A DNA stretch of 64,000 bases from Selaginella tamariscina (lineage: Eukaryota > Streptophyta > Lycopodiopsida > Selaginellales > Selaginellaceae): assembly GCA_003024785.1 (NCBI GenBank), contig PUQB01000027.1:814046-878045 (forward strand). The letters are read 5' to 3'. Positions 5,198 through 64,000 of this stretch are shown here, piece after piece. The translations under genes and the position numbers were made by a program. Positions within the stretch are counted from its first letter, which is position 1. Every line of letters begins with the position of its first letter. The notes beneath the pieces are model-generated. The model saw nothing but the letters and a program-made list of their open reading frames with translations, had not been told where the DNA came from and made no database searches.

Positions 5198-7260
5198 ATG
5201 ACAATGAATATGGAGACGGCTTTTAGCATTATTGCTACTGCTATTGATGCACAAACGAAGTTGTTGAAGCGCTTTGTTGAGGGTTCGTCCTCATCTTCCC
5301 CGCCTGAGCCTCCTGCCGGGGGATCTGCTTCTAGTGCTCCTTTGTCTTCTTCACAGGCCACAAATCCGAGGGTTCGACCTCGATCTTTTTGTGGTGATCC
5401 GGGAGATGATGTATACCATTGGTTTGATCATTTCCAGGTTATTGTTCGTTACCATGGTTAGGATGAAGCCCGTGCTCTAAGAGAATTCCCTACATGTTTG
5501 GAAGGCCCTGCGCTCAAGTGGTATTGTCATAGTTTTTACTATGACTCAACCCTTTACTTTAGGGTTTGACTGTTGTTACCTACCGAGTTGTGTGACGAAC
5601 CCTAGATGTAGTAGGAAACAGGCCCATTTAGTGCACTTGGGTATCTGGTGATGGTCCGGCCGGGTGTCATTAGGTATTTGCAAGAAACTCTAGGTGAAGC
5701 TAGAACTTACCTTCTAGAAACTCTCCCCCGGTTTGACGTTCTAGGTTATAAAGTATAGCTTGTCAAAATAAGGGTTAGGGACACTCCTAGGGTTGACCTA
5801 ACCCTAGGGTTGCCCTAACCCCACGCCCTAATACCCCCGGTTAGGTTTAGGGTTAGGTTAGGACAACCAGTTTCTTTAAGGGCTGGCATTTCCGTGCCAG
5901 CCCACTTACTCATTTAGGTAAACAGGGGGGGGGGGGGGGGTCCGTCACATAAATAAGGTAGAGTATATATAGTGAGGCTTCCTGGGTTCAAAAGAGAGCT
6001 CGTTAACCTCCTACCGGTGCAAGCTAAGCTTGTGTCGTCAAGGTGCAACCCTCTGTTGTGCCGCCCAAACTTCCACACGACAGGGGTACAACCCACCCTA
6101 GGGTTAGACTATCCTTATCGTTGGCAGGATCTTGCCTTTGAGACAAGGGCACGTCACTTCCAAGGAGTTAGCCAGATTCCTTGGTCCGAAAACCTGCTCG
6201 CAAGCTCAAAGGTATTGCCCGAGTTCACGTTCCGCAGGACTAGTGGTTGAGGCCTTGCTCGGCCGCCTCAACCACGCCAAGCTAGGAACGACACCTAAAG
6301 CTCGGCTAGTCCGTGTATCCTGATCCACAAGGTGAGTCTCGTTCGTGGGCTTAGTCAGTTAGGGGTTGGAGTTCCTAAGGCTTGGGTTCCTAATACGGGT
6401 TATTTTACCAGATTCCGTGGGGTTTCCAGAGAGGGGATTCCAGGGTTGGCACCTGGCAAGCCGCCTTTGTGGCACCAGGTAAATACTCTGACATGTATAA
6501 TGGATTGGCTGCGGAGATTCAAGCCAATAGTAATCGGTTAACGGAATGCCTCAAACGTACGTTTGGCAAAGTTGAGGATTCAGATGATGCTTTCCAACAA
6601 CTGCATGCGATACGACAACATCCTGGTGAGTCTGTTATGCGGTTCAGTATTAGGTTCGGGGATTTAGTTCGGCGTGCATATCCTAACATGCCTGAGCCCA
6701 TTAAGCTCGGTATGTTATGGCCAACTATGCGACCCGAACTTGTTCGATTCGTTCGGGCTCTTCGTCCTACCACATTGGAGGAAGCTTTTGCACTAGCTCA
6801 ACGTTTTGAGTTGGTGCCTGGTGAGGGCCGTGTTCCCCTTGGGTTACCTGCTCCTCTTTCAGCGTGCTGATCCAATGGAGGTTGATGCTGCTGCATATGT
6901 GCCCGCACGACAAGCCTTTCGTGGTCGACCTCGGGGCCCACCCCGTGGACCACCTCCACGAAATCGTCCTGCACTGCTCCAGTTCCTGCCCGTGGTGGTC
7001 AAAATCCACGGATTCGTGACAGGAGGAATCGGAACAATGCAGGTCACCCAATCAAGTTCATTGTTGGGCCTGTTGGGCACCTGGACATACTTGGCGGGCA
7101 TGCGATGTGTATCCTGATTGGCGTCCACCACATCCAGGCTGGCGACCATATGTTCCGGATGGTGTACCTGTGGCGGCCATTATGTCTGATGATGAGCTTC
7201 CAGATGATGACGCTCTCTTGCGGTGGATCTGTTGCGGAAAACCAGTAATCGTACGGGCGA
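5198..7260 (+). pseudogene. gag: gag of Ty3 element 1, interrupted
   Basis: The N-terminal part runs from ATG 5198 through the conserved DVYHWFDHF region and reaches an in-frame TAG at 5459-5461. Coding similarity continues to 5524, where a solo LTR is inserted, and resumes at 6499 (DDAFQQLHAIRQHPGES, then the KLGMLWPTMRPELV region). After about 6870 the frame shifts; the zinc-knuckle area and a WRPPHPGWRP tail are still visible. Element 2 has the uninterrupted equivalent at 36254-37204, which fixes the insertion point. The product would have been the nucleocapsid protein. Confidence 0.8.
5525..6493 (+). mobile_element. solo LTR of another retrotransposon, nested in gag
   Basis: This 969-bp insert starts TGTCA and ends TGACA. 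It is flanked by GGTAT (5520-5524) and TGTAT (6494-6498), a 5-bp target duplication with one mismatch. It splits the gag codons for WY from the following sequence, as comparison with element 2 shows. It has no internal coding region of its own. It contains a hairpin at its start (5526-5545), telomere-like AGGGTT/CCCTAA stretches (5765-5865), a stem-loop at 5881-5902, a run of 16 G (5925-5940), and TATA-like sequence near 5963. It therefore looks like one LTR left by recombination between two. Confidence 0.8.
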
Positions 7261-7269
7261 CGGAGGGAT

Positions 7270-7700
7270 CCCGTGCGATGGAAACTCCACCTCCATGCTT
7301 TTTTCCGCTATGCATATCAAGGGTTGCAAGTTCCACCAAATCATCCAGTTTTCACATTTTCTGCACGAGTGAATGATGTTTCAGTCACAGTACTTGTGGA
7401 TACAGGATCTAGTATGTCTTCCATAACTACTTCTCTGGCGCATCGGTGCTCATTACCCTTGAGACGAGCAGATAAGGTCTTGCACATTTTATATGGTAAT
7501 GGGCAGTCTCGTGCAGTATCACAGTACACCACTTCGACTACGCTGGTTATGGGTGCCAACTGTAAGTTTCCCTCTGGGTCTCTTAGGGTTGTCCCTTCCC
7601 AGGTCTTTGACATCATTCTGGGATGTGATTGGTTAAAGCAGTCGAAAGGTACATGTGATTTTTCACTCTCTCCTCCTGTATTACGCTTGGAGTCTGTGTC
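7270..7700 (+). pseudogene. aspartic protease region of Ty3 element 1
   Basis: The retropepsin active site LVDTGS lies at about 7393-7410. It is followed by the flap-side sequence ILYGNG and the C-terminal motif ILGCDWL (about 7612-7635), as in Ty3/Gypsy proteases. It is in one open frame from 7273 to 7767, but no longer in frame with gag or reverse transcriptase. The role in an intact element is cleavage of the polyprotein. Confidence 0.8.
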
Positions 7701-9210
7701 TTGCAGTCTGTTCCTTTACGTCCAGAGAAGTTTGTTGCTGTTTGTATCACGCATACAGCTCCTTTGATTCCGGTCTTGGGGTGGTGTTCATCTCAACAGG
7801 TTCAAATGCCGGATCCGTCACCTGAGTGTCGAGCACACTGCATCGAACAACTTAAGAAACAGTATGCAAGTTTGTTCAAATTTGATCTGTCCCAAGGTGC
7901 ACGTGTGAAGACTCGACACTGTATACCCACCGGCAATGCAAAGCCTTTCAAAGTCCCGGTTCGACGCAGGTCACCAAAGGAGTTATCAGCCATGCGAACA
8001 GCTGTTACTGATATGATTGGTAAACGAGTGTGTCGTCCGTCACGGAGTCCATGGGCATGTGAACCTCATTTGGTTCCCAAGCCTGATGGATCTCTCCGAT
8101 TTTGTGTGGATTACCGACCTCTTAACGATGTTACCATCAAAGATGTCTATCCACTTCCGAACTCTGCCGATCTATTAGATCGTTTGGGTCAGAGTCGATG
8201 GTTTACTAAGTTGGATTTGGCATCAGGATATTGGCAGGTTCCTATGGCTGAGGAGGATATTCCAAAAACGGCCTTCCGGACACCATTTGGTCTTTACGAG
8301 TTTTTGGTCATGCCTTTTGGATTGACTTCAGCTCCTGCCACCTTTCAACGCATGATGGATGAGCTTCTTTCCGATATGCCTGATATCACTGCCGATTTTA
8401 TCGACGATGTGCTCATTCATGGGTCTGGTTCTTGGGAGGATCACATTCGTGATGTACGGCGCGTTCTTGATCGATTTCGAGAAGTTGGCCTGAAGTTGAA
8501 ACTTGAAAAGTGTGTGTTTGGTTCGACCGACACCACTTACTTGGGTTACCGTATATCTCGAGAGGGTTTACAGGTGGATCCAATGAAGTTGCGAGCTGTT
8601 CGAGAGTTCCTCGTCCCGTACAGTACAGGAAGTCCAGCGTTTCTTGGGCACGGTGCAGTACTTGGGTCGATTCATCGATCATCTCACTGATCGAACTGCC
8701 CCTCTTCGGGAGTTAGTTCGTCCACAGGTATCTTTCAGGTGGACTCGCAGGTGTCAGCAGGCATTTGACCAGTTAAAAGAGTTCCTGACAACTCCACCAT
8801 TGCTTCAATACCCAGATTTTACTCGTCCGTTCATTTTACGAGTAGATGCCTCAGATGTTGGTATTGGTGGTGTATTGATGCAAACTGATGCTGTGGATTC
8901 TTCAATTCGACACCCGGTGGCTTACATTAGTCGAGTACTCACGCCGGCTGAGCGGAATTATTCCACTACTGAAAAAGAATGCCTTGCTGCTGTTTGGGGT
9001 TTTGAACGACTTCATGCCTACTTACATGGGAGTGAAACACTTTTGGAGTGTGATCATGCTGCTGTCACTTCCTTATTAAAACGGAAGAATTTAGTGGGTC
9101 GCGTAGCCAGATGGGCATTACGTCTCCAGGTATATAACTTTAAGGTGGTGCACAGGCCTGGGCGAACAATGGTGGATGCGGATGCACTTTCTCGAGCACC
9201 CCTCTCCGAT
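7701..9210 (+). pseudogene. pol: reverse transcriptase and RNase H of Ty3 element 1
   Basis: The reverse transcriptase spans about 7807-8600, with CVDYRPLN, FTKLDLASGYWQ, the FGLYEF and VMPFGL blocks, and the catalytic FIDDVL at about 8396-8413 (F in place of the usual Y). The frame shifts near 8610. RNase H continues in another frame from 8644 with LRVDASDVGIGGVL, the YSTTEKECLA block and DADALSRAP. Two frames are needed, so no functional Pol protein can be read from this copy. Confidence 0.9.
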
Positions 9211-9269
9211 TCCACTTTGCCTGCTCATGCAGTAGCTGCAGCATTCGGTTTGATACAAGCCCCTCAGGT

Positions 9270-10500
9270 ATTCGATGCCGACTTACCATCCTTGGAACAG
9301 TGGCAGGATGCTCAAAAACATGAACCATGGACGAGGCAATTACGCGATGCGTTTGCAAATCCGTCTTCCGAACCTCGGTTTCGACAATATCATGCTCAGT
9401 TTCGACTTCAGGATGGTTTATTGTATTTTATTGGGACAAATCCAGAGGACAGATGGCGTTTGGCTGTACCCTCTACATATGTTCCACACCTTCTTCGAGC
9501 ATATCATGATTCACCTATTGTTGGAGGTCATCTTGGTCACCAACGAGTGTTGGAGAAGCTGCGCCGATCATTTTATTGGCCAGCATGCGTGGTGATGTGA
9601 TCAGGTATATTCAAAGTGTCCCACTTGTCAAACTCGGAATTCCTCTACGACTCGGGCCATGGGGTGTTGGAATCCATCAATGTCTCTCGCCCTTTTGAGT
9701 TAATTGCAGTGGATTTAATGGGACCTTTTCCACGTTCTTCTCAAGGTAACCAGTACATCATTGTTATGATTATTTAACTCGATGGGTGGAGGTTGGTGCT
9801 CTTCCGGATGCAACTGCCATGTCAACAGCTTTGTTTCTGTTCGATAATGTGGTTTTGCAGCATTCTTGTCCAGAGCGGATGTTATCAGACAATGGCCCCG
9901 CTTTCATTGCAGAGGTATTCCGAGTGTTGTGTGAGAGGTTAGGGGTAAAACATTCATTTGCCTCTCCGTATCATCCACAAACTGATGGTTTGGTGGAGCG
10001 ATTGAATCGGACCTTCAAGGGTATGATCTCGAAGTATGTGAACTTCAATCACACGGACTGGGATTGGTATTTGCGATGTTTGAGATTTGCTTATGTAACA
10101 GGCATTCAGAGTTCGATTGGTATCTCTCCATTCAAGGCATTGTATGGATATGATCCTAAGTTGCCTAGTGAATTGGGGTTATCATCGAATCTGCCACGTG
10201 CCGAGGATGCAAAGATGTGGGCTCGACATTTGGATGCTGTTTTGCCTCTTCTGCGTGCAGAGTCTGCTGAACATCTTGGTCGAGCTCAAATGCGGCAGCA
10301 ATCTTCTTACAATGCACGACATCAAATTCCACCAGATTTTGACGGTGACTTAGTCCTGGTACGTTTTCCCAATGACTGCACCTGGGCTTGCAACTGGTTT
10401 ATTACAAGTGGCTTGGTCCCTACCGAGTACTCCGAAAGGTTGGTCCTCAGGTATATCAAGTACAGTTGGTGGGATCTCATGAGGTTGAGATAGTTCACGT
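9270..10500 (+). pseudogene. integrase region of Ty3 element 1
   Basis: The H2 half of the HHCC zinc finger is present (GGHLGHQRVLEKLRRSFYWP, to about 9582). The stretch that should carry the two cysteines is shifted out of frame after 9595. The catalytic core shows AVDLMGPFP in a third frame, then LSDNGPAF (about 9886-9909) and the HPQTDGLVERLNRT block with the catalytic Glu. A C-terminal GPYRVL-like segment follows from 10388 in yet another frame. At least three breaks were seen. Confidence 0.85.
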
Positions 10501-36253: not shown

Positions 36254-37204
36254 TGAATCCACAACAGGCAAATCCCTTGTCTGTGGAGCAGTTACTCATG
36301 CAGTTGTTGGATGCCATGCGTGTGCAACTGAACAATCATTCTCAGTTGATGGCAGCATTCACAGTCCAGGTACTCCTCCTACTCATGTTGCAAACCCCCG
36401 TGTCCGGCCGGATTTCTTTCGCGGAAATCCTGGAGATGATGTGTACCATTGGTTTGACCACTTCACTGTGGTTGCCACATATCATTCGTGGGACGGTGCT
36501 CAGTGTTTGCGCGAGTTTCCTACTTGTCTTCAAGGGACGGCGTTGCAGTGGTACAATGGTCTGGACGTTGCAACTCGTGGAGATTGGAATATTCTTCCAA
36601 GATCTTCAAACGTGCATTTGGGCATGCGGACGACTGTGATGATGCTTTTCAGCAGTTGCATCGTATTCGTCAGGAGCCATCTGAGTCGGTGATGCAGTTT
36701 GGTGTTCGCTTTCGAAGCCTTTTACTGCGTGCAGAACCTAACATGTCGGAACGCATCAAGTTAGGTATGTTGTGGCCAGCACTTCGTCAAGACCTTGTGG
36801 GGCTTGTGCATGCACTAGCTCCAGTGACTCTTGACGATGCTTTGAGGCTGGCACAACGATATGAGTCGTCACCTCTCCCACTTGCGCTTCACGTGCTCTT
36901 GTTCCACTCCATGTTGGGGATGGACCTGCTCCGATGGAGGTTGAGGCTGTTGCCGCTCGTGTACCAGCACAAGGTGGGGCCCGTGGACGAGGACGTGGAT
37001 GCAGTTCGTTGTTGGGCGTGTGATGAGGTTGGACACACGTATCGGCGTGTCAACGGTTTCCCGATTGGCGTCCCCCATTTCCAGGATGGAGGCCATGGCG
37101 TCAACAACGTCCGGTTGGTGCTGCTGCAATGGAAGGTTGTGATGCGGTGGATCTTCCGGGAAACGACGAATCGCACGAGTAGAGGAGGGTCCTCGTGCGA
37201 ATAA
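36254..37204 (+). pseudogene. gag: gag of Ty3 element 2
   Basis: ATG 36254 (MNPQQANPLSVEQLL) opens the frame. A frameshift near 36380 moves the DDVYHWFDHFTVVATYH block to a second frame, and another near 36590 moves the FGHADDCDDAFQQLH to KLGMLWPALRQDLV part to a third. A zinc knuckle CWACDEVGHTYRR is visible at about 37013-37053; its last cysteine is out of frame by one base. Product in intact relatives: capsid/nucleocapsid. Confidence 0.82.
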
Positions 37205-37269
37205 ATTAGTGACCCCTCCATCTTTCTTTCGGGAGTATCATCAAGGGGTTCACTAATTTACTTCGCACG

Positions 37270-37570
37270 CCTCGTCCCATTTTTCCTTTCAGTGTTGGTG
37301 GATACAGGTTCGTTTGTCCTCTGTTTCTCAATCTGTTGCTACACGTTGCAGCCTTCATTTGCGTCGTGCGGTAGAACCAGTCTTCATTCTGTACGGCAAC
37401 GGACATACTCATGCTTGTTCGCGGATGAAGTGGACATTGTTGTTCGTGTGGATGATTGTGAGCTCGAGCTTCAATCTTTGCGGGTGGTGCCGAGTCAAGC
37501 TTTTCACCTTATTCTTGGTATGGATTGGTTAACTCGCAATCATGCCAAGTGTGACTTTGAAAAGTCTCCC
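37270..37570 (+). pseudogene. protease region of Ty3 element 2
   Basis: LVDTGS (about 37294-37311) marks the retropepsin site. The following residues split over two frames (VSQSVATRCSLHLRRAVEP in one), and the terminal ILGMDWL is at about 37513-37533. Between protease and reverse transcriptase lies a Ser/Pro/Phe-rich linker. Confidence 0.78.
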
Positions 37571-37727
37571 CCTTGTTTGACTCTCCCTCGTCTTTCTTCC
37601 ATTCCTCTTACTTCTATTCCACTTCGTCCATCTGCTTCCACCTCTGCTTCCATCACTTTTGTCTCACCCTATTTCCAACCATTTTCCCTTCATGCTCTTC
37701 CTTTTCTTCTTTGGATCCATCAGATGA

Positions 37728-39110
37728 TCGTCGTGCTGTAGTTGTTGATCAACTCAAGAAGGAGTATGCTGATCTTTTCAACTTCGACTTGTCATCTGGG
37801 GCCAAGATTGCGACACGCCACCCTATTCCAACTGGAGAAGCTAGGCCAATCAAGGTACCTGTTCGGCGTCGATCACCAAAGGAGCTCAAGATCTTACGAG
37901 CGAATGTCAAAGAGATGTTGGAGAAGGGTGTTATCCGGAAGTCTCGAAGTCCTTGGGCGTGCGAACCTCACCTTGTGACGAAGCCTGATGGGAGCGTTCG
38001 ATTCTGCATTGACTATCGCCCGTTAAATGAGGTAACCGTCTCAGATGTGTACCCACTTCCTCATACTGCAGACCTTTTGGATCGACTGGGGCGGAGCCGT
38101 TGGTTCACCAAGTTAGATCTCGCATCTGGATATTGGCAAGTTCCGATGGCTGACATGGACATTCCCAAGACTGCTTTTCGGACACCATTTGGCCTGTACG
38201 AGTTCCTGGTGATGCCTTTCGGTTTGAGCAATGCTCCAGCAACTTTCCAGCGTATGATGGACGAGGTTCTTTGCGACATGCCGGAGGTGACTGCCGATTT
38301 CATCGATGATGTTTTGATCCATTCGGATGGAACGTGGGAGGAGCATGTCGGTGATGTACGTAAGGTTTTGGATCGATGCGGGAAGTTGGTTTGAAGTTGA
38401 AGCCATCTAAGTGTGTGTTTGGATCAAAGGACACCACTTATCTGGGTTATCGCATTTCACGTGAAGGTTTGCAAGTCGATCCTGACAAACTAGTTGCAGT
38501 TTTGAAGTTCCCTACGCCAAAGTGTGTGAATGATGTGCAACGCTTTCTTGGCAAGGTACAATATCTGGGTCGTTTTGTGGATCATCTTTCAGATCGTACT
38601 GCACCGTTGCGCGCGTTGTTGAAATCGTCAATGACTTCTTTTGTTTGGTCTAAGGATTGCAAGCAGGCATTTGCAGATCTCAAAGAGTTGTTGACGACTC
38701 CTCCAGTTTTGGCGTACCCGGATTACACCCGTCCTTTCATCTTGCGTGTAGATGCTTCTGACATCGGCCTCGGGGGTGTATTGATGCAGGAGAGTACGAG
38801 TGTTCCTGGCCAACGACATCCCATTGCGTACATCAGCCGTACATTGCAGCCAGCAGAGGTGAATTACTCCACGACTGAAAAGGAGTGTCTAGCAGCAGTT
38901 TGGGGTTTTGAGAAGCTCCATGCCTACTTGCATGGTTCGCGGACGTTGTTGGAAGGCGATCATGCAGCAGTCACTTCGTTGTTGAAGCGAAAGAATTTGA
39001 TTGGGCGTACTGCTCGGTGGGCCTTGAAACTTCAAATTTACGACTTTGAAGTTGTTCATCGTCCAGGAGTTCCATGGCTGATGCTGATGCTCTTTCTCGG
39101 GCTCCTCTTC
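37728..39110 (+). pseudogene. pol: reverse transcriptase and RNase H of Ty3 element 2
   Basis: The reverse transcriptase is open from 37573 to 38394, with KVPVRRRSPKEL, CIDYRPLNEV, FTKLDLASGYWQ, VMPFGLSNAPATFQRMMDE and catalytic FIDDVL (about 38299-38316). A frameshift near 38380 moves the following GLKLKPSKCVFGSKDTTYLG and RNase H (LRVDASDIGLGGVL, YSTTEKECLAAVWGFEKLHA) into another frame that ends near 39060, just before the conserved DADALSRAP, which is found in the next frame from 39074. Near-complete otherwise. Confidence 0.92.
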
Positions 39111-40430
39111 CACCTTCTCTCTCTTCTGTTGCCCCAGAGGAACCAGTTGTTCCAGCTTCAGTGGACTTTTTGGATGAAGATTCCGTACCATCAGCAGTTG
39201 CTGTGCTTGACGTTCAGTGTCCGCAGAATGCAGAGTTAGATTTGCCGTCTTTGGATGAGGTTCGGGAAGCTCAAAAGGTTGAGCCGTGGATTCGAAGGCT
39301 TCGTGATGGGTTTGAGAATCCTGCATCACTTGCTGATGACTTGCCTTTCAGGCATTTACATTCACAGTATCGCCTTCAGGATGACCTTCTTTATTTTGTG
39401 GGGACTGATCCAGATGATCCTTTGCGGTTGGTGGTGCCTTCAATCTTCATTCCACGCTTCCTCCATGCTTACCATGACTCTCCTATTCTTGGCGGGCACA
39501 TGGGACATCGTCGGGTGATGGAGAAGCTGCGCAGATCTTTCTATTGGCCGGAGTTGCGAGGAGATGTGATTCGGTATGTGCGTAGCTGTGTGTGGTGCCA
39601 AGCTCGCAATACTCCCCCATGTGCTTCGGAAGGACGGTTGGAGTCAATTGCAGTTTCTCGTCCGTTTGAATTGGTGGCATTTGATTTGATGGGACCTTTT
39701 CCGCGGTCAACTGCTGGTAACGAGTACGTTATTATTGCTTCTGATTACCTAACTCGTTGGGTAGAAGTTGGTGCTCTTGCTAGTGCGACTGCTTCTGCTG
39801 TTGGTCAGTTTCTCCTGAATCGGGTCGTGTTTCAGCATTCTTGTCCGGAGCGAATTCTCTCGGATAATGGTCCCATTTATGGCTGAGGCATTTCATGTTT
39901 TGACATCTCGATTAGGGATACGCCACACTTTCACAAGTGCTTATCATCCTCAGACAGATGGTTTAGTGGAACGGCTCGTCAGAACCTTCAAGGGGATGAT
40001 CGCGAAGTATGTGAACTTTCAACATTCAGATTGGGATGGTTATCTGCCGTCTCTCCGATATGCTTATGTCACTGGAGTTCAAAGTTCCATTGGTACTTCC
40101 CATATAAGCTTTGTATGGTCATGACCCGGTGTTGCCAACGGAGTTGGGTTTGCCTTCTCGGTTACCCGAGCTGCTGATGCTAGGTCGTGGATCGGTATCT
40201 GACGAGCATTCTTCCATTGGTTCGTGCGGAGTCAGCAGAACACTTGGGCCGCGTACAAGTAGGACAACAACAACGCTACAACTCGCATCATCGTCCTCCT
40301 GCGGAGTACAAGGTTGATGAACTGGTGTTGGTTCGTTTTCCCAAGCTTACGGTACGTGGTTTAGCTAAGAGTCTCCTTCCTCAGGAAAGGACCGTATCGA
40401 GTGACGGCAAGTAGGGCCACAGGTTTATGA
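39111..40430 (+). pseudogene. integrase of Ty3 element 2
   Basis: The HHCC zinc finger is intact here: HDSPILGGHMGHRRV, SFYWPELRGDVIRYV, then CVWC. The core shows AFDLMGPFPRS, ILSDNGP and, after a one-base shift at about 39875, HPQTDGLVERLVRTFKGM with the catalytic Glu. Further shifts occur near 40100 and 40165. The C-terminal domain is recognisable (VDELVLVRFPK) but is broken soon after. No chromodomain seen. Confidence 0.88.
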
Positions 40431-51704: not shown

Positions 51705-52950
51705 AATAACCAATTCGCTACCGCTGAGCTCAGGTAGCAACTCTTCTTTATTAAAGAAAAAAAAAAGCGGCAACCAGATTTGAACTAGTGGCCCATTACT
51801 AGATATTTTTGAACACAACGTGTGTGTGAAAGAGAGGGGAGAGAGAGGGATGGAGAGTGCACATGTTAATCTTATTGTAATTAAGTTTAAAGAGGTAAAG
51901 TAGTTATATAACACAATTATCTTATCAATTACTTTGATTTTTCTACAGAGGTTGTTGTATATATCCCAGTAAATTATATATATGTTGTATTAATACACAC
52001 ACAATAATACACACACACAACAAAATATATGTGTGTAAATTATTTTAAAAAGAAAGTATCCTATTGTAATTTATTTATTGTAATCACAAGGCTCTAGATT
52101 TAAAATAGGGGAAATTATATTTATACCCCTGAAGTTTATTGTATTTGCGTATATACTTTTAGAAAATTTATATTTACATATATACCCCTTTAAAGGTTAT
52201 AAATTTACATATATACCTTTGAAAACTTTAATCAGAATATTTTAATTTTAAAATAATAATATTAATTAAAAAAATATTTTTAATTCATAATATATACAAA
52301 TGAAATAATTAAATGTTAAATATTAAAAGATTATCATAATAAAAATGAGATATATATGTTTAATAAGTTGTATTTTGGACCTAAATATAATAAAATACAA
52401 ATTAATTATAAATTTTTATTGATTTTTAAAAAATGTATTTTAATTTTTAATTTTGAAATTTATAAAGTTTTAAATTGAAATTTCAAGAGTACATATATAA
52501 ATATAAATTTTTAAGGATATATATGTAAATATGATAAATTTTAAGGGTGTATTTAATAATTTTAAGAAGGATATGATATTGCTATATGAACTTAAACCTA
52601 AAGATATTAATGTTGTCTCATTTTAAAATTTTAAATAGCATAAACACTTCCGGTTCAAGTATGTAATAAAAGATTACTTAATTAATCTTTAATTATAAAT
52701 AATTATAAATAACCTTTATTTATTACTTAATTAACTAACTATCTTAAGTATTTATTTTCTATTATTTATAATTAACCTTACTTATTGCTTAATTAATTAA
52801 TTATCTTAAGTATCTATTGTATACTGCTTATTATTATAATTAACCTTTACTATTGTTTAATTAATTAATTATCTTAAGTATTTATTGTATACTGCCTATT
52901 ATTATAATTAACCTTTACTATTGTTTTATTAATTAATTATCTTAAGTATC

Positions 52951-52979
52951 TGTGAGAGCTCGGACACGTGGATCTTACA
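52951..52979 (-). mobile_element. 29-bp remnant of a Ty3 element 2 LTR
   Basis: On the minus strand it reads TGTAAGATCCACGTGT, the first 16 bases of the element 2 LTR, directly joined to CCGAGCTCTCACA, its last 13. All LTR sequence between is gone. Copy 2 of the duplication has no such insert at the matching place (about 56332), which confirms it as an insertion. Confidence 0.82.
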
Positions 52980-55102: not shown

Positions 55103-56373
55103 GGAAATAACCAATTCGCTATCCTGAACTCATTTTACACATGTAGTAACTCTTCTTTATATTAAAGAAACAAAAAGAGGTAACCAGATTTGAACTAATG
55201 GCCCATTACCGGATATTTTTGAACACAACGTGTGTGTGAAAGAGAGGGGAGAGAGAGGGATGAGAGTGCACATGTTAATCTTATTATAATTAAGTTAAAA
55301 AAAGGTAAAGTAGTTATATAACACTATTATCTTATCAATTACTTTGATTTTTCTACAGAGGTTGTTGCATATATCCCAGTAAATTATATATATGTTATAT
55401 TAATTTACACACACAATTATAGTAACAAAATATATGTGTGTAAATTATTTAAAAAGAAAGTATCCTATTGTATATTTATTTATTGTAATTACAAGGCTCT
55501 AGATTAAAAATAAGGGAAATTACATTTATACTCCTGAAATTTATTGTATTTGCCTATATACTCCTTAGAAATTTTATATTTATGTATATACCCTTTTAAA
55601 AATTATAAATTTACATATATACCTTTGAAAAACTTTAATCAGAATATTTTGACTTTTAAAATAATAATATTAATTAAAAAAATATTTTTAATTCATAATA
55701 TATTGCAAATGAAATAATTAAATGTTAAATATCAAAAAATTATACTAAAATGAGATATATGTTGTATTTTGGACTTAAATATAATAAAATACAAATTAAT
55801 TATAAATTTTTACTAATTTTTAAAAATGTATTTTAATTTTTAATTTTAAAATTACAAAGTTTAAATTGAAGTTTCATAATACATATATAAGTATAAAATT
55901 TTTAGGGATATAAAATTTTAGGGGTATATTTAATAATTTTAAGGGTATATTTAATAAATTTTTAGGGGTATATTGATGTATATTCGATATTAAGGATATG
56001 ATATTGCTAAAGGAAGAATATGAACCTAAACCTAAAGTTAATGAAGATGTTATTGTCTCATTTTAAAATTTAAATAGCATAAACACTTCCGGTTCAAGTA
56101 AGTTTGTAATAATCAAGATTACTTAATTAATTTTTAATTATAATTAATTATAAATAACCTGTATTTATAACTTAATTAACTAATTATCTTAAGTATCTAT
56201 TTTCTATTGCCTTATTATTTATAATTAACCTTTACTTATTGCTTAATTAATTAATTATCTTAAGTATCTATTGTTTATTGCCAATTATTATAATTAACCT
56301 TCACTTATTCTTTTATTAATTAATTATCTTAAGTATCTATATTACTAGTATTTCACAAAGATATAACTTTAAG

Positions 56374-56413
<40 letters not shown>

Positions 56414-57362
56414 AAGAACGCATAGGTGCTTATGGATGGATACAGGCTGGATCAATATGGCATTCAATAACCAAGAAGCGTAAGAATAGTGATTACTTTG
56501 CATCTTTTTATGTTTTGAAAACTTTTATAATTAAAAAAATAAAAAAATTAACGACATAGTATAAAAAATTTAAACTACTTAAATATGACATTGATAATTA
56601 ACCTTTACTTATTGCTTAATTAATTAATTATCTTAAGTATCTATTGTTTATTGCCAATTATAATTAACCTTCACTTATTGTTTTATTAATTAATTATCTT
56701 AAGTATTATATTACTAGTATTTCACAAAGATATAACTTTAAGTATTATATATATATTATATATATATATATTATATATATATATATATATATATTTGTAA
56801 GAACGCATAGGTGCTTATGGATGGATACAGGCTGGATCAATATGGCATTCAATAAACAAGAAGCGTAAGAATAGTGATTACTTTTATGTTTTGAAAACTT
56901 TTATAATTAAAAATTAAAAAAATTAACGACATAGTATAAAAAATTTAAACTACTTAAACATGACATTGATAATTACGGTATCATTATATGTGTTTATACA
57001 TAGACATATCCTTATATTTGTATATAAATATTCATGTGTCCATTTAATGTACATATATTTAAACATATTTATAAATACCATCAAAAAAAATTAGTGTAAT
57101 ATTTATGATGTAATTTCCATTTATAAACTTGTTTCAAACTATACTTATATGGTGTAAGTTTAATATTAAATCAATTTTATACTAAATTATGCAAATGTAT
57201 AAATATTGTAAAAATTCAGATATTTAAAATTCTTTCTCAATTGCCAACTATAGAAAGATATCACTGTTGTTAGGCATGGGGGCCTGGAATATACTGGCAT
57301 GTGCTGTGTGATGCTGGAATGCAGGTTGTCCAACCGCAACAAAGGAAGGTTCAGTGGGAGCA
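55103..57362 (+). repeat. segmental duplication B, copy 2
   Basis: A direct copy of 51705-53880 without the MITE and the LTR scar. It contains its own tandem duplication of about 375 bp (56220-56594 and 56595-56975). The two copies diverge by scattered substitutions and repeat-length changes. Confidence 0.85.
56220..56975 (+). repeat. tandem duplication of about 375 bp inside copy B2
   Basis: CTTACTTATTGC-type sequence through GAACGCATAGGTGCTTATGG and AATTAACGACATAG occurs twice in a row. It is present once in copy B1, so the event is later than the B duplication. Confidence 0.8.
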
Positions 57363-58700
57363 GTTTTAAAAAACGCATATCACTATAGCATATGAACAAT
57401 TTAGGGGCTAATAGGTATACTATGCATATTTATTAGAAAATATAGTTTGATCCAATGGTTTTGAATGCTTAGAGTTAAAGAAATTGTTAACGTGTTAATT
57501 CAAGATTATCTATTCCAAACAAAATAATATCCTACAAAACCACGTACTATTAGATGAACATCCATGTCCATATAAAGTAACTGCATATATACATGTGTAT
57601 GTATATTCTTTATTAACATGTTCGTAAATCAAATAAAATTTCAACATTTAAAAGATTACATCTCATCCTCGATTTTAACATCTTCTAATTTTTCATTTCT
57701 AAGTTCACAAAATTGTTGTCATCGAATCCCCTCGTTTGCACTTCATTTTACATCGTCTCTGTAAGATTTAGAATCGTGATTAAATCCGTAGTAAAAAATG
57801 TTATGAAAATATTTAATTATTAATTTATTAATTATTAATTTAATTTAATTATTAATTTATAACATTTTTTTACTACAACATATATCACTGTTTGGAACTG
57901 TGGGCCGCTCGCAGTTCACAAAGGCCGGCTGCTTGAATTGCAAGCAGCCGGCTCGCAATGCATCCCTTAGGCCCTAGGGAGTCACTTGTAGTTCCCAAGA
58001 GCGCTCATCAAGCAACTGTGAGAGACCGCTTGTAGTTGGGAGGAGAGAATATAATATTATAAATGATATTATACTCACACATATATATCTTAAATATTTG
58101 TACTAATATATTTCTATATATAATGAATAGCAATTTCATATATCTATATAATCTATATTTATATATTATCTATTATATACATTTAATAGATATTTGTATT
58201 AATTCATTCCTCTCTTAGTTTATAGATGTTCTGAATTTTATGGATATGCACAAGGGCCAATGAATTAAACAATACATAATAACCTGTTATATTAAATTTT
58301 AGTTATGGGTTTCGCTTATGTACAATATCTCACGTACTGATGTTACAAAGTCAAAGTTGGAGTTCTTTATTTTGTAGCCCATAGTGACCTTCACAACGAT
58401 AGTCACTAGTAACAGGTGCTCAAGCTAAAATAAATGTTCAATAACCATTTCAAACACTATTATTATGACTCTACCTTCATGTGAGTTTGAATCTTAAAAT
58501 CACTTTTAATTATATTGATTTCTGATTTCACCACATAACAAATTATTGAGATTGTAACAAGTGGGCTTACGAAGAAAGTCTAACTTCTTGATATAACAAA
58601 CAATGTCATTGGGAGTGTCGCCATTTTGGAGGCTTGGGGCCCAGGAGGCCTGGGCTCGAATATTCAAGAATATTCTAGAATATTTTGGAATATTCTTTCT
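57363..58700. other. spacer with two stem-loops and a GC-rich island
   Basis: AT-rich apart from 57890-58045, a GC-rich block of about 155 bp. 57788-57876 is an inverted repeat (arms GTAGTAAAAAATGTTAT and its complement) around an AT spacer. 57924-57952 is a perfect 12-bp stem (GCCGGCTGCTTG) with a 5-nt loop. The block may be a small transposon, but I could not find both ends. No gene. Confidence 0.5.
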
Positions 58701-58701
58701 G

Positions 58702-58727
58702 GTCGGCAGTATTGGCCTCAGTCGGCA
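58702..58727. repeat. GCCGACTGA motif at the 3' end of the ParB gene
   Basis: On the minus strand, TGCCGACTGAGGCC followed by TGCCGACC lies about 80-100 bp after the stop codon. The same GCCGACTGAG core is in each leader exon, so the motif brackets the whole gene. Confidence 0.6.
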
Positions 58728-58805
58728 AAAAAGAATTCTATTAAAACTGTTGTATTTCTTTTATTTTTTTTATATTAGCTTAATTTATTACTCAATATAC
58801 ATTAG

Positions 58806-61800
58806 CTAAAGTTTCTTCTTCATCTTAAGTAAAGCTGCAGTTCTCGAACCACCAGTTACGCTTGGACGTGGAGGTGTTTGAGTAGGTAACTCTTCTGGTC
58901 TAATGTTCTCTGCAAGCTTGTTTGTTGCCAACCTAGAGAGTTCGAAACTCTTCTCGGTTCCTATAATATTCCTTCCGAGCTCGACGGCAGCTAACAATGA
59001 TGACCCGGTTCCGGAACCAATATCCCAGACTAGGTCGCCAGGTCTACTGAGACGCTCGATCAAAAGCTGCATGAGTCGAACACTCTTCGGTTGAATCATA
59101 ATCCTGCACAAACTTCCATTAGGATAAACATAGCAAAGTACTTCCTTACCAAGCCTCCTGATAACGGTCGGCAGTGTCGACGAGGATCGTGTTCGTCAAC
59201 GCCAGAGGGTTTGGCCTCTTCGACTTCTTCTCAGAGCTTTGCAGCACCAAGAGAACTAACAAGTTATCCTGCCACATAGACCAAGTTAAACTTGAACTTG
59301 AATAGCTAGCTTACCTTAATTTTGTCACGGTATCCCCAGCCTCGTGCAAGACGCTGTAAGTCCCTGCAACCTCCAAGTTGATTACTGCAGCCGCCTGAAT
59401 CACCGCCGAAACAGAAGGAGAACTCGCGAAGACGACCATGAAACCACTCGCTGCCAAGTGCATTCCACTGAACTGCAAGGCCTCCTCAAACTTCACCGGA
59501 TCTAGCTGCACAATGTCCTTGTTGATGCTAGCACCTCCATATACAAGCTCATTGGGCAAGTCGAGGATGATGAGGTTGAAGCCGTATTCACCTACCACTT
59601 CCTGGAACAACGTTTGTGACTCAACCGTATGTAGTCTGTCAACCTGTTGTCGGAGCTTGGTGTACACCTCTGTCTGGGAAGCACCGGCTCGAAGAAAGAC
59701 CTGCTCATCTCCTCCATGTCACACACAGCTAGGTCGTAGGATCCACGGGATGCAGCCAGGGTCGGGATGAAGGTCATCAGGTCGTCCTTGATGTCCAAAC
59801 TAGCTACAAGTGGCTGTACCTCATTGATTGTAAAGTCGAATGCCGGCGGAGGTGCTGTAGAAGAGCTTGGTCCCGCTCCCGATCCCTTTGCAGGTGTAGT
59901 TGTCTTCCGCACCGTCTTCTTCATCTTGCTCTTCTTGATAGCCTCTACTTCTTCTGGCTCCCAAACAATCGCTGGTAGATCATTGCGTGCATGTCGAATA
60001 GTGTGCTCTCCCAAGCTGGTGGCTGTTGCGACGGACAGTCGAGCCAGAATGGAACATGCTCCCGTTCGAACGGTGTTAGAGCTCCTCTGCTCTTCGACCA
60101 CATGTGAGGCTCGCTTGTATGATCTGTCCACAGCTTCATCGTATGGGACGGTGTCATTTGCTTCGCCAGTATGAACCTGCAACACAAAGTCAGACAGTAG
60201 CAATGCTGGATTGAAAGCTTACCTCCATATCATCCGACGCGCATTCCTCACGCTCCAGAAACTCATTCGGCTCCATCGAATAAGTGAACCGTATGCAGTC
60301 ATGGAAGGGCTGAAAGACCAGGCACTTGCTCCGAAGTTCTCATCTCGTCAAACCAGCTCATGAAGTCGACATCCGTTCCAACTTCTTCACCATCCTCTCG
60401 CAACCCCTTAAGGATCTGAATGGCTTCCTCGCGCACAGCCTTCCAATATAAGTCCAAGGTGAACCACTTGATCCACTCTTTGTCCTGCATGCCCGGTAGC
60501 CCAAGTGTCTGTTGTTCTGCCTTGGATTCGAGACGGGTGAGCTTGTTCAGGTATCGGAGTCGCAGCATGTTTGGAATCTTCGCCTTGACATCGCATACAG
60601 CTTCTCAATGCCCATCCAGCGACACTGCTTATGAGAGATGTTTGTCACCTTCTGGAACCACTCCTCCCCCAAGTCTGGGTCTATGATGGAGAGGAACTTG
60701 TGCATACGCTTGTCATGCTTCTTGTACACTAGCTGCTTAGGTTCACCTCAACCTGTGAATTGCCCTTAGCACTGGTGACTGCTCTGTCGAGATCATCGTC
60801 GATCTCGTTCTGCACATAGAACAAGTTAAAAATTTCTTTCCTATAAATTAAATCGGAGGTTACCTTGAAAAGGATCTTGGCAGATCAGGTTCGGAAGAGG
60901 ATGCCAAGCCGTCTTTCCTGATGAACTCTCCTTCCACTTCCGCACCTCAAGACGATCAACCTCCGTGAGTGACTCGAGGATTTTCTGAGTTCACTAGTGC
61001 AGACCGCCTTTACAGCGAGGAGAATATGTGGTAGCGTTGTTTCCACAGATGTTGCTGAAGATCTGTTCAACGAAACTGTAAGTCTAAACTCTTAACAAAA
61101 AGAAAAGAAAATACTCACATGTTAATCGATTGGAACATCGAAACCAGTTGAAGAAATGTCGAGGTTCTCCGTGGAGATGAAACTCGATCGAACGCGAATA
61201 GCCCATCGCTGGTTGTCCTCTGCATCCTCTCGGTACAGCTTCTGCAAAGCCTGTAGCCTATGGTTCCCGTCCCAGCAGCTAAACTTCCTGTTTGAGAGCC
61301 TTGAAGCCCACTGTTTGTACTCCGGCTGAGTAAGAGCTTGCTCGAAAGACCGGTGCTGCTCGTACTGAATCGTGTCCTTCGACAGCTCCGATAGCTCCTC
61401 AGCAGTGAGTCGATCTCCGATGGACAGAATGAACAAGGCCGTGTTGCGTAGATAACCAGCCTTCTTCAACGATGACACCAGCCTGTCCAAGTCCCCTGGG
61501 TTCACTCGTCGAACCACCTCGTTGGAATGTATTCTGCAGATGGGCACATCAGGAGGATCACCAAGTCCCTTGATAGTAATTTTGTCGAGCAGGTTTGCTG
61601 AGCTCTCCAAATGCAGGCTCGCCGGTATGCTGTATAACTCCTTCGGCTCCTTATCGCTCTTCGCCTTCTTGCCTTTTGAATCAGCTTTCCCGCGGCCTCT
61701 CTTTTTGCTGACTGCCTCCTCCAAGTCGTCCTCGCTAGCTTCAGCTGCCTCTGTCATCTGCACTTGCTCGTTCAGGACTGCAACCTCAGCGGATGAAGGA

Positions 61801-63290
61801 GGCAACTGCGACGAGCTCTCCGGGAAATCTGTGATTGTTGGTGGAGGCTGTTCTTGCTCAACTGCTACTACTCCAGACTGAGTCACTGGAGGATCCTCCT
61901 TTGCTACATTAGATGGTTCTCCTCTCTTGCCTCGCTTCTGCTTCGATATCCTCTTCTCTTCCCGTGGCTCTTCATCAGGCGCAGTCTCTAGTAGACGTTT
62001 TGAAGCTCTCACCATTTTGTAAACTCTGGAAAGTAAACACACAAGTCAATTGATGAGGACAAAATAAAAAAACAAACAAAGATGACTAACCTTGTGGCTG
62101 CCGACTCAAGCTAGATGCTGCCGACCCTCTCAGTCGGCAGAGAGATGTAGAAGAAAAACCTGCCGACTGAGATAGTTTGTGCCGACTCTGTCAGACGGCA
62201 CTGAAGAGAAGAGAGATAATGGTGCCGACTGAGATAGGATGGTGCCGTCCCTCTCAGACGGCACAAATGGGAAGACCCATTAACTGTTTTAAAAGAAATA
62301 CTTGAGACGCAAAGAAAAAAAAAAACTAATTCAAAATACCTTGTGGCTGCCGACTGAAGAAGGATGGTGCCGTCACTCTCAGTCGGCACAAATGGGAAGA
62401 CACTATAACTCTAAAAAAAACATTGTTATACGGATACTTGAGCCGCAAAGCAAAATATAAACAAATTCAAAATACCTTGTGGCTGCCGACTGAAGAAGGA
62501 TGGTGCCGTCACTCTCAGTCGGCACAAATGAGAAGACACATTAACTCTGAAAAAAAACAATGTGATACGAATACTTGATCCAGAAAGCAAAAAATAAATA
62601 TATCGAACATACCTTGTGGCTGCCGACTGAACTAGGATGGTGCCGTCACTCTCAGTCGGCACAAATGGGAAGACCCATTAACTCTGAAAAAAAAACCTTG
62701 TGATACGAATACTTGAGCCAGAAAGCAAAAAAAACAAATCGAAAATACCTTGTTTTTGCCGACTGAACCAGGATGGTGCCGTCACTCTCAGTCGGCACAA
62801 ATGGAAAGACCCATTAACTCTGAAAAAAAACATTGTGACACGTATACTTGAGCCGCAAGGAAAAAAATAAATAAATCGACGATACCTTGTGTTTGCCGAC
62901 TGAACCAGGATGGTGCCGTTGCTCTCAGTCGGCACAAATAAGAAGACCCTATATCTCTGGAAAAAGAAATACTTTGAGCAGCAAATCATAAAATACAGAA
63001 ATTACACATACCTTGTGGCCGCCGGCTGAGCAGGATGGTGCCGAGAATCTAAATCGGCACAGAAATCTCCATTGTTATACTTGGGCGCTGCACGAATCGA
63101 GTCAAATGGATGGCGCCGCAGTGGAAACCGTAACTCTGAGATCTGAGATTGAAGAAACCCTCTGGATCTGCCGCAGTGGAAACAGATCTGAGATTGAAAG
63201 AACCCTAGCCGCAATGGAAACAGTAAACCCTATCTACCAAAAAACCCTAGCCGCAATGAAAACAGTGAACCCTACGGAATAAATGTGACA
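58806..63290 (-). CDS. ParB-like domain fused to DNA amino-methyltransferase-like domain
   Basis: Coding exons: 62025-61119 (ATG 62015), 61075-60864, 60809-60223, 60176-59315, 59268-59150, 59103-58806, all GTAA/GTGAG...CAG; leader exons lie upstream. Domain order: a Lys/Arg-rich acidic N terminus with an NLS-like KKRGRGKADSKGKKAKSDK; a ParB/sulfiredoxin-like part (VPICRIHSNEVVRRVNPGDL, SSLKKAGYL, FSCWDGNHRLQALQKL); about 350 residues I do not recognise; a methyltransferase-like part with NLIILDLPNE (motif IV position), then KSVRLMQLLIERLSRPGDLV and WDIGSGTGSSLLAAVELGR (motif I). Motif IV before motif I is the order of beta-class N6-adenine/N4-cytosine methyltransferases. DLPN departs from the usual D/N/S-P-P-Y/F/W, so activity is uncertain. 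ParB-methyltransferase fusions are known from phages and bacteria. At least five frame breaks. Introns of 43-54 nt are unlike those of neighbours. Confidence 0.75.
62091..63080 (-). repeat. tandem array of duplicated leader exons
   Basis: Units of about 136 bp repeat from 62340 to 63012. On the minus strand each has a pyrimidine tract plus CAG acceptor, a 71-nt exon, and donor CAAG|GTAT. Exons: 62956-62886, 62819-62749, 62683-62613, 62546-62476, 62410-62340, each exactly 71 nt; introns 65-66 nt between most. The first (63012 upward) and last (62283-62091, 193 nt with three hairpins) are variants. Each exon holds an inverted repeat, GCCGACTGA ... TCAGTCGGC, and several have a short upstream ORF (MGLPICAD or MCLLICAD). 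Exon length is not a multiple of three, so they are most likely untranslated. Confidence 0.8.
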
Positions 63291-63300
63291 TTAATATTTA
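63081..63300 (-). promoter_or_regulatory. probable first exon and promoter of the ParB gene
   Basis: On the minus strand this has two imperfect repeats of TTTCCACTGCGGCAGATC and several AGGGTTT/AACCCTA (telo-box) elements, common near plant transcription starts. The last part joins the first donor at 63012. Confidence 0.45.
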
Positions 63301-63556
63301 GGGTTTATTTTAAAATATGTGAATAATTGGTAAATGTGAAGATATTTCAAATCATAAAAGGTAGAAATTAAATTAAATCGGTGATACTAGAGAGGACATC
63401 ATTAAGAACACTGTGAACTGGGCAGCATAGAATTAATTATATACAAACGTGTATTCACGTTTATTGTTAACGATTGTAATTTTTTTTTGGTAAGGAAAGT
63501 GTGTTTAATCTTTTGCTTTGCTTTCCTAAACCACCGAGCTTTCTCCTTGCGTTGTC
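63301..63556. other. spacer before the last gene
   Basis: AT-rich, with a T run at 63480-63488. It must hold the promoter of the partial gene that follows. Nothing else seen. Confidence 0.5.
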
Positions 63557-64000
63557 ATGGCCAGAGTTACCTATGAAGGCATTGACAAAGATTTCCCAGT
63601 CGATGAAGATGGAAATGCTTTTGTGTTTGAACATGATCTTCACATTGCTTTCAACATTCCTTGTTGGTTCAGTATACATGTGGTTCAATTGATGTCAGTT
63701 TCTGCGAGTTCTGGAGAAGATGTGGAGTTGTTACCAGAAGGCAATGCATCAAACCAGTTTGTCTTTTACACATTGTGCCCGGCAAAGGGCCCGTTGTTCA
63801 GGTTGCGGACAGAGGAGCGTGAGGAATCCATGCTGGTGTGTCTTCTAAGAGCAGACAAATGTAGGATAGGGAAGGATCTCATTGGTTCGTCTGAAGTTAA
63901 ACGAGTCTCTGAACTACCGCAGATATACAATGGAAATGTCATTTTCGAACTTCCCCCTAAGACAGAAAGCACAGAGAAGTACTCGGGGATGAATCGCAAG
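63557..64000 (+). CDS. unknown protein, N-terminal part, runs off the window
   Basis: ATG at 63557 (TCATGGCC context) opens a frame of 148 codons that is still open at the window end. It starts MARVTYEGIDKDFPVDEDG and later has FEHDLHIAFNIPCWFSIHVV, ELLPEGNASNQFVFY, TEEREESMLVCLLRADK and VSELPQIYNGNVIFELPP. It is acidic and mainly hydrophilic, with no signal peptide and no motif I recognise. Unlike almost all other coding sequence here it has no frameshift and no intron in 444 bp, and coding-type composition throughout. It may be an intact gene or a transposon product. Confidence 0.6.
   Translation, partial: MARVTYEGIDKDFPVDEDGNAFVFEHDLHIAFNIPCWFSIHVVQLMSVSASSGEDVELLPEGNASNQFVFYTLCPAKGPLFRLRTEEREESMLVCLLRADKCRIGKDLIGSSEVKRVSELPQIYNGNVIFELPPKTESTEKYSGMNRK

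Follow-up and report, generated by a model that had tools for sequence, protein, structure and literature searches.

Within a 64,000-nucleotide stretch of the genome of the land plant Selaginella tamariscina (assembly GCA_003024785.1, contig PUQB01000027.1, positions 814,046 to 878,045 of the forward strand; called here the window) lies a gene that joins a ParB-like segment to a DNA methyltransferase-like domain, and this gene is one of two genes in an 8.3-kb DNA transposon, a high-copy element that has been mobile recently. The reading that we favour, with a probability of roughly 0.6, is that the gene serves as accessory cargo of a Mutator-like element of a land plant, and that its product would combine ParB-like binding with methylation of the element's DNA. 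A first-pass annotation, made from the letters of the window alone, had described a prokaryote- or virus-derived DNA-modification gene, now either a domesticated epigenetic enzyme or a transposon gene that marks its own DNA. In what follows, we describe the element and its copies, the two genes and the site array that separates them, and weigh the explanations that they allow.

The left end of the element lies at position 58613 of the window (GAGTGTCGCC...), and the other end (GGGTCTCGGC...) about 2.9 kb past the end of the window (G000:C582:880941, window-equivalent 66896). Seven copies retrieved with their flanks, members of a family called F1 here, can be aligned over 8.2-8.3 kb and share their end points, exactly or to a few bases, with two of them (C1338 and C449) being slightly different at one end; terminal inverted repeats are present, short and imperfect. 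Each copy differs from the majority of the seven by 7-25 substitutions and by 14-116 inserted or deleted bases. Target duplications were surveyed in 17 copies (the seven and 10 more), both ends being matched in 12, and six of these 12 carry a duplication, which measures 9 bp in four and 8 or 9 bp in two, depending on how a run of G is read. The window copy, complete at both of the ends given above, is yet without a clean target duplication. When the assembly to which the window belongs (1391 contigs, 300.7 Mb in total) was searched with exon 1, 531 candidates were obtained; 40 of them were scored, and all 40, including the window, match at 100% (rounded). A degenerate codon pattern for WDGNHRL, a motif of the ParB-like segment, has 568 exact matches in the genome and none when read backwards as a control, and the first 100 among the matches listed are spread over many contigs. 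The copies show that the transposon option of the first-pass annotation holds; a lone domesticated enzyme is not supported, the gene lying in a multi-copy transposon.

The ParB-methyltransferase gene runs on the minus strand from its ATG at 62015 to its stop codon at 58806-58808, and comprises ~990 codons in a model of six exons and five introns of 56, 54, 46, 46 and 46 nt, obtained by comparison with other genomic copies. The introns were inferred from the reading frame and the splice consensus (GT-AG boundaries), not from RNA, and in this sense the gene agrees with the spliced nuclear gene of the first-pass annotation. The broken frame that had also been suspected is present, at several places in the window copy, and other copies hold longer open stretches. 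Counted from the ATG, 857 codons are open in C1170 and 759 in C504; in C449 the last 601 codons are open, and in C1293 a run of 389 is followed by one of 590. A stretch resembling a nuclear localisation signal (KKRGRGKADSKGKKAK), likewise part of the earlier description, is seen in the protein by eye.

The relationship of the C-terminal part to DNA methyltransferases is carried by a profile match: the piece encoded by 58809-59195 matches the Pfam family PF01555 (N6_N4_Mtase; 1.4e-9, 38.6 bits against a cut-off of 26.7), and the match exceeds the curated cut-off in both families compared, F1 and a second family, F2. Among solved structures, MboIIA, CcrM and DpnA are weaker matches of the same piece. 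Along the protein, motif IV (DLPN) precedes motif I (DIGSGTGSS), which is the beta order and the order first reported, and the region of motif I is identical at 48 of the 63 residues compared between F1 and F2. Against five phage ParB-methyltransferases, a profile built from copies of F1, F2 and F4 gives a co-linear alignment of 200 columns that stretches between motifs IV and I, with a probability of 91.6 and an E value of 8.4e-7 (one target). Five other phage methyltransferases, stand-alone enzymes of 216-267 residues, were not used for comparison.

The ParB-like segment is interrupted by an insertion of ~47 residues between its two core motifs, and hhalign, run against ParB domains of nine phage loci, matches up the core motifs on either side of it. 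None of 300 shuffles came up to the score of 28.9; the best of them scored 22.2, and the reversed sequence 10.7. From a set of ten phage loci with ParB, nine went into the ParB profile, L055 being dropped as its gene crosses the record start, and five into the methyltransferase profile. When the three-copy profile of F1, F2 and F4 was compared with ParB, the WDGNHR region alone was aligned (22 columns, E 1.1e-4), and a six-frame search of the whole genome with PF02195, the Pfam ParB family, gave zero candidates. A single-sequence AlphaFold model of the protein (pLDDT 35) was too poor for use. The two halves that the first-pass annotation had named are thus real, one by its PF01555 match above the cut-off and the other by its hhalign score; as for their placement by profile, the methyltransferase half falls in its Pfam family, and the ParB similarity is found by hhalign and not in Pfam.

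The second gene of the element, divergent from the first, is a candidate transposase of ~1,000 codons with two predicted introns. By eye, it holds the series WVVLD...FMSDE...CLFHF...TTNNAE (D/D/CxxH/TNNAE) and CSC...CVH, a SWIM-like finger; motifs of this sort are known from the Mutator family. Pfam SWIM matches of 0.0087 and 0.04 are both under the cut-off, and a protein search with residues 140-700 returned nothing at E<=0.01. The element is accordingly read as Mutator-like because of the 9-bp duplications and these motifs, and not from a profile result. Features in common with Mutator/MuDR are duplications of 9 bp, a transposase-like gene in which DDE-type motifs and a SWIM-like finger can be read by eye, and a second gene of helper type. 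The genes of MuDR are convergent, unlike the divergent pair described here, and its second gene is not known to be related. An assignment to EnSpm/CACTA, suggested by the subterminal repeats, was rejected: CACTACNA occurs twice in the window, less often than the 8.7 times expected by chance, and the duplications are of 9 bp.

The same two-gene layout recurs in F2, of which one copy was fetched (L064; 8,920 bp, with a 9-bp target duplication). Its ParB-methyltransferase is 59% identical to that of F1 over 845 columns, and its transposase is 55-75% identical in three pieces, the genes again lying head to head. In a tblastx alignment of 2019 codons, some of them possibly out of the true frame, F1 and F2 are identical at 0.68, 0.76 and 0.39 of first, second and third codon positions, a pattern as expected under purifying selection. 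A third, more divergent and decayed relative of the ParB-methyltransferase gene (L065; G000:C280:288500-292500) is matched by tblastn at nothing past residue 752, and hence at neither motif IV nor motif I. In an older F1-like copy (L066; G000:C7:51300-55300), C-to-T changes affect 22% of CG (69/312), 15% of CHG (54/370) and 4% of CHH sites (39/1030). Methylation at CG and CHG in plants would be expected to leave such a pattern, so that older copies of the element, judged from this one, were probably silenced by host 5-methylcytosine (5mC).

The two genes are separated by an array of TGCCGACTGA/TCAGTCGGCA sites. Each of the seven F1 copies holds 13-14 exact sites, one of which stands past the methyltransferase stop, and the sequence fetched from outside the elements, 141.9 kb in all, contains no exact site. 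With one mismatch allowed, 17 of the 18 near-matches in the window fall inside the element, against a chance expectation of 1.6. The 9-mer CAGTCGGCA occurs 13 times in the inter-gene region of F1 and 14 times in that of F2; across 500 single-base shuffles of either region, it turns up at most once. In F2, the array core is found at the corresponding place in the form of perfect palindromes, CAGTCGGCATGCCGACTG, of which there are 1135 genome-wide and 0 in the control, and in all eight palindrome contigs among the matches listed, an F2-type WDGNHRL lies 0.92-0.93 kb from the nearest palindrome, on the expected side. The rest of the F1 and F2 inter-gene regions can be aligned in short stretches only, one being the telobox-like AAACCCTAGC; telobox-like AAACCCTA words, common to F2, were seen at 63150-63330.

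Five tandem units of the array each hold a block of ~71 nt between a splice-like acceptor and a splice-like donor. The block measures 71 nt in all five units in six of the seven copies and 65-71 nt in C1293, with spacers of variable length, and the fold of one of these blocks has an energy of -24.9 kcal/mol (z -2.8). The tandem leader units at 62297-62965 resemble repeated exons of ~71 nt with variable introns, and some of them show, by eye, a short upstream open reading frame, MGLPICAD.

Table 1. Features of the transposon and its genes, in coordinates of the window
Feature	Position	Strand	Remarks
Transposon, part inside the window	58613..64000		seven copies cease to be homologous at the ends or a few bases away
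TCAGTCGGCA site at the opposite end of the element	58718..58727	+	just past the methyltransferase gene; in 7/7 copies
Exon 6	58806..59103	-	holds motif I, DIGSGTGSS (58998-59024), and the stop codon
Exon 5	59150..59268	-	frame-based model
Exon 4	59315..60176	-	holds motif IV, DLPN (59551-59562)
Exon 3	60223..60809	-	central region; without Pfam domain; conserved in F2
Exon 2	60864..61062	-	frame and GT-AG boundaries
Exon 1	61119..62015	-	frame broken near the exon's 3' end in the window copy; open through in C1170, C449, C504 and C1293
ParB-like segment	61178..61544	-	NPGDLDRL...SLKKAGYLRNT; WDGNHRLQAL; hhalign against 9 phage ParB domains
TGCCGACTGA/TCAGTCGGCA site array	62099..63061		partly tandem units of ~137 bp
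Second gene, Mutator-type transposase candidate	63557..64000, on to ~window-equivalent 66716	+	L015:1557-4716; conserved in F2

Elsewhere in the window, host genes are recognised by cupin, V-ATPase H and signal-peptide-peptidase matches above the cut-off and by an enoyl-CoA-hydratase-like match just below it, and a pentatricopeptide repeat (PPR) gene adjoins the far end of the element; taken together, these genes point to a land-plant host. Two stretches of retroelements of Ty3/gypsy type lie at 6394-10493, with a reverse transcriptase match of 1.3e-35 at 7659-8687, and at 36458-39886 (by eye). An inverted repeat, GCCGGCTGCTTG/CAAGCAGCCGGC, in AT-rich DNA at 57900-57990 is possibly a small non-autonomous element, and a 385-bp tandem repeat of 2.0 copies at 56217-56975 has a similar-looking counterpart at 52702-52951.

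Searches for relatives beyond this genome brought little. Among ~8,000 best candidates of 5.8 billion proteins, residues 120-930 and 640-1018 of the methyltransferase protein had no match at E<=0.01, and a scan of viral contigs and GTDB genomes with a few peptide patterns found no relative. Phage records match the region of motif I only: at E<=1 there are 295 of them, and the best 20 rows span 7-10% of the query. A search by tblastn of the ParB-like segment against phages gave a single chance match. The phage and prophage ParB plus beta-class methyltransferases compared (Lactobacillus phage CV244, AcaML1 gp25, Psychrobacter pOW20-A, an Evtepia phage and Wolbachia WOVitB) share the order of domains with the plant protein, together with the co-linear motif IV-to-I profile alignment. 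They differ in their length of 392-428 aa, in the absence of the long ParB insertion and of a long central region, and in a DPP-type motif IV in the profile consensus. Of the prokaryotic or viral origin first proposed, the domain relationship to phage proteins therefore stands, and a direct phage or bacterial source was not shown by these searches.

A closer parallel is found in transposons of algae. In PMC12477816, the transposon Sola1-1_Ec32 of the brown alga Ectocarpus is described as encoding a 1104-aa protein with ParB and N4-methylcytosine/N6-methyladenine (N4mC/N6mA) methyltransferase domains, its gene being opposite in orientation to that of the transposase; the paper cites further cases from green and red algae and proposes that DNA of the element itself is bound and marked. 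Going by this description, the Selaginella element is alike in that a large DNA transposon carries, in the orientation opposite to its transposase, a gene for a ParB-like plus N4/N6 methyltransferase protein of ~1,000 residues. Unlike Sola1-1_Ec32, which belongs to the Sola superfamily and measures 21.5 kb, it is Mutator-like, 8.3 kb long, resident in a land plant, equipped with a site array and of very high copy number. The green and red algal transposons with an accessory ParB-methyltransferase (Iyer et al. 2011; Petroll et al. 2025, as cited in PMC12477816) have other hosts and are likened here by description as well. Since the architecture is known from algal transposons, the gene need not be a recent transfer from a prokaryote to a plant. 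The kind of gene is thus already known, and the land plant, the Mutator-like carrier, the high copy number and the conserved array are apparently new; in the mostly open literature searched, there was no report of a ParB-methyltransferase cargo in a land plant or in a Mutator-like element, and a land-plant case may possibly be contained in Iyer et al. 2011 or Petroll et al. 2025.

If the gene is accessory cargo of the element, the ParB-like part (or the transposase) would bind the CAGTCGGCA/TGCCGACTG array in the promoter shared by the divergent genes, the fused methyltransferase would then modify element DNA, as N6-methyladenine (6mA) or N4-methylcytosine (4mC), and the mark might set expression, tag new copies for the transposase or oppose silencing by host cytosine methylation. 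A more specific form of self-marking, in which the ParB-like domain loads on parS-like palindromes and the methyltransferase writes 6mA or 4mC, with self-recognition of the element, resistance to CG/CHG silencing and hundreds of copies as the outcome, is put forward only tentatively. The existence of functional 6mA or 4mC in plants, and the identity of its writer, is disputed. Several results weigh against the cargo reading as a whole. Motif IV reads DLPN in F1, F2 and F4, the classical catalytic (D/N/S)PP(Y/F/W) not being found, and to judge from this replacement of the DPPY type, catalysis could be altered or lost. Most of the alignment score against the phage profile comes from the region of motif I (45 columns), and the motif IV half, taken alone, is not significant (96 of 200 shuffles were equally good; with the three-copy profile, the probability is 0.2). 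The ParB-like piece has no Pfam ParB match (PF02195), nor has the second gene a Pfam MULE match. Among the 12 copies in which both ends could be matched, six, the window copy being one of them, lack a clean target duplication, and the site array could serve the transposase instead. Finally, both genes are frame-broken in all seven copies, including all four copies in which the ParB-methyltransferase gene was re-spliced; the excess of inserted or deleted bases over substitutions suggests that part of these breaks are sequencing read errors, which is a likely source of some of them and is unproven.

The DLPN motif of F1, F2 and F4, together with an array in the shared promoter and single sites at the far end, would also suit a regulator that binds DNA, has a methyltransferase fold devoid of catalytic activity, leaves no methyl marks and controls the divergent promoter or aids the transposase, much in the manner proposed for Spm TnpA and the second gene of MuDR. 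Such a regulator appears doubtful to us, in view of the strong conservation of the motif I region between F1 and F2 and the retention of DLPN, which suggest a constraint on the S-adenosylmethionine site. That a domesticated plant DNA-modification enzyme was incidentally copied by a transposon is improbable: the protein is indeed long and conserved, and its gene nuclear and, on the exon model, intron-bearing, yet two families hold it in the corresponding head-to-head place with their own transposase, its copies are near identical, and no lone host homologue was seen, though one could have been missed. Fusions of ParB with N6_N4 domains are enriched in phages and prophages, according to PMC12704722, as would be expected if an endogenised giant-virus or phage fragment were at hand. 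The termini, the target duplications and the transposase-like gene define a cut-and-paste element instead, and no relative on viral contigs was found with the patterns used, so that a viral fragment is very improbable. A bacterial contaminant or an assembly join, which the first-pass annotation had entertained and to which the frame breaks in the window copy might point, is scarcely credible given 568 pattern matches in the plant assembly, the predicted introns, host genes in the window and a PPR gene adjoining the far end of the element.

On the reading of the gene as transposon cargo, a class of cargo described from green, red and brown algae appears to gain both a land-plant host and a carrier of Mutator-like type. 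A candidate writer occurs here together with hundreds of targets, near identical where compared, which makes self-marking by a eukaryotic transposon directly testable, and the 9-bp site conserved between two families offers a defined target for this question.

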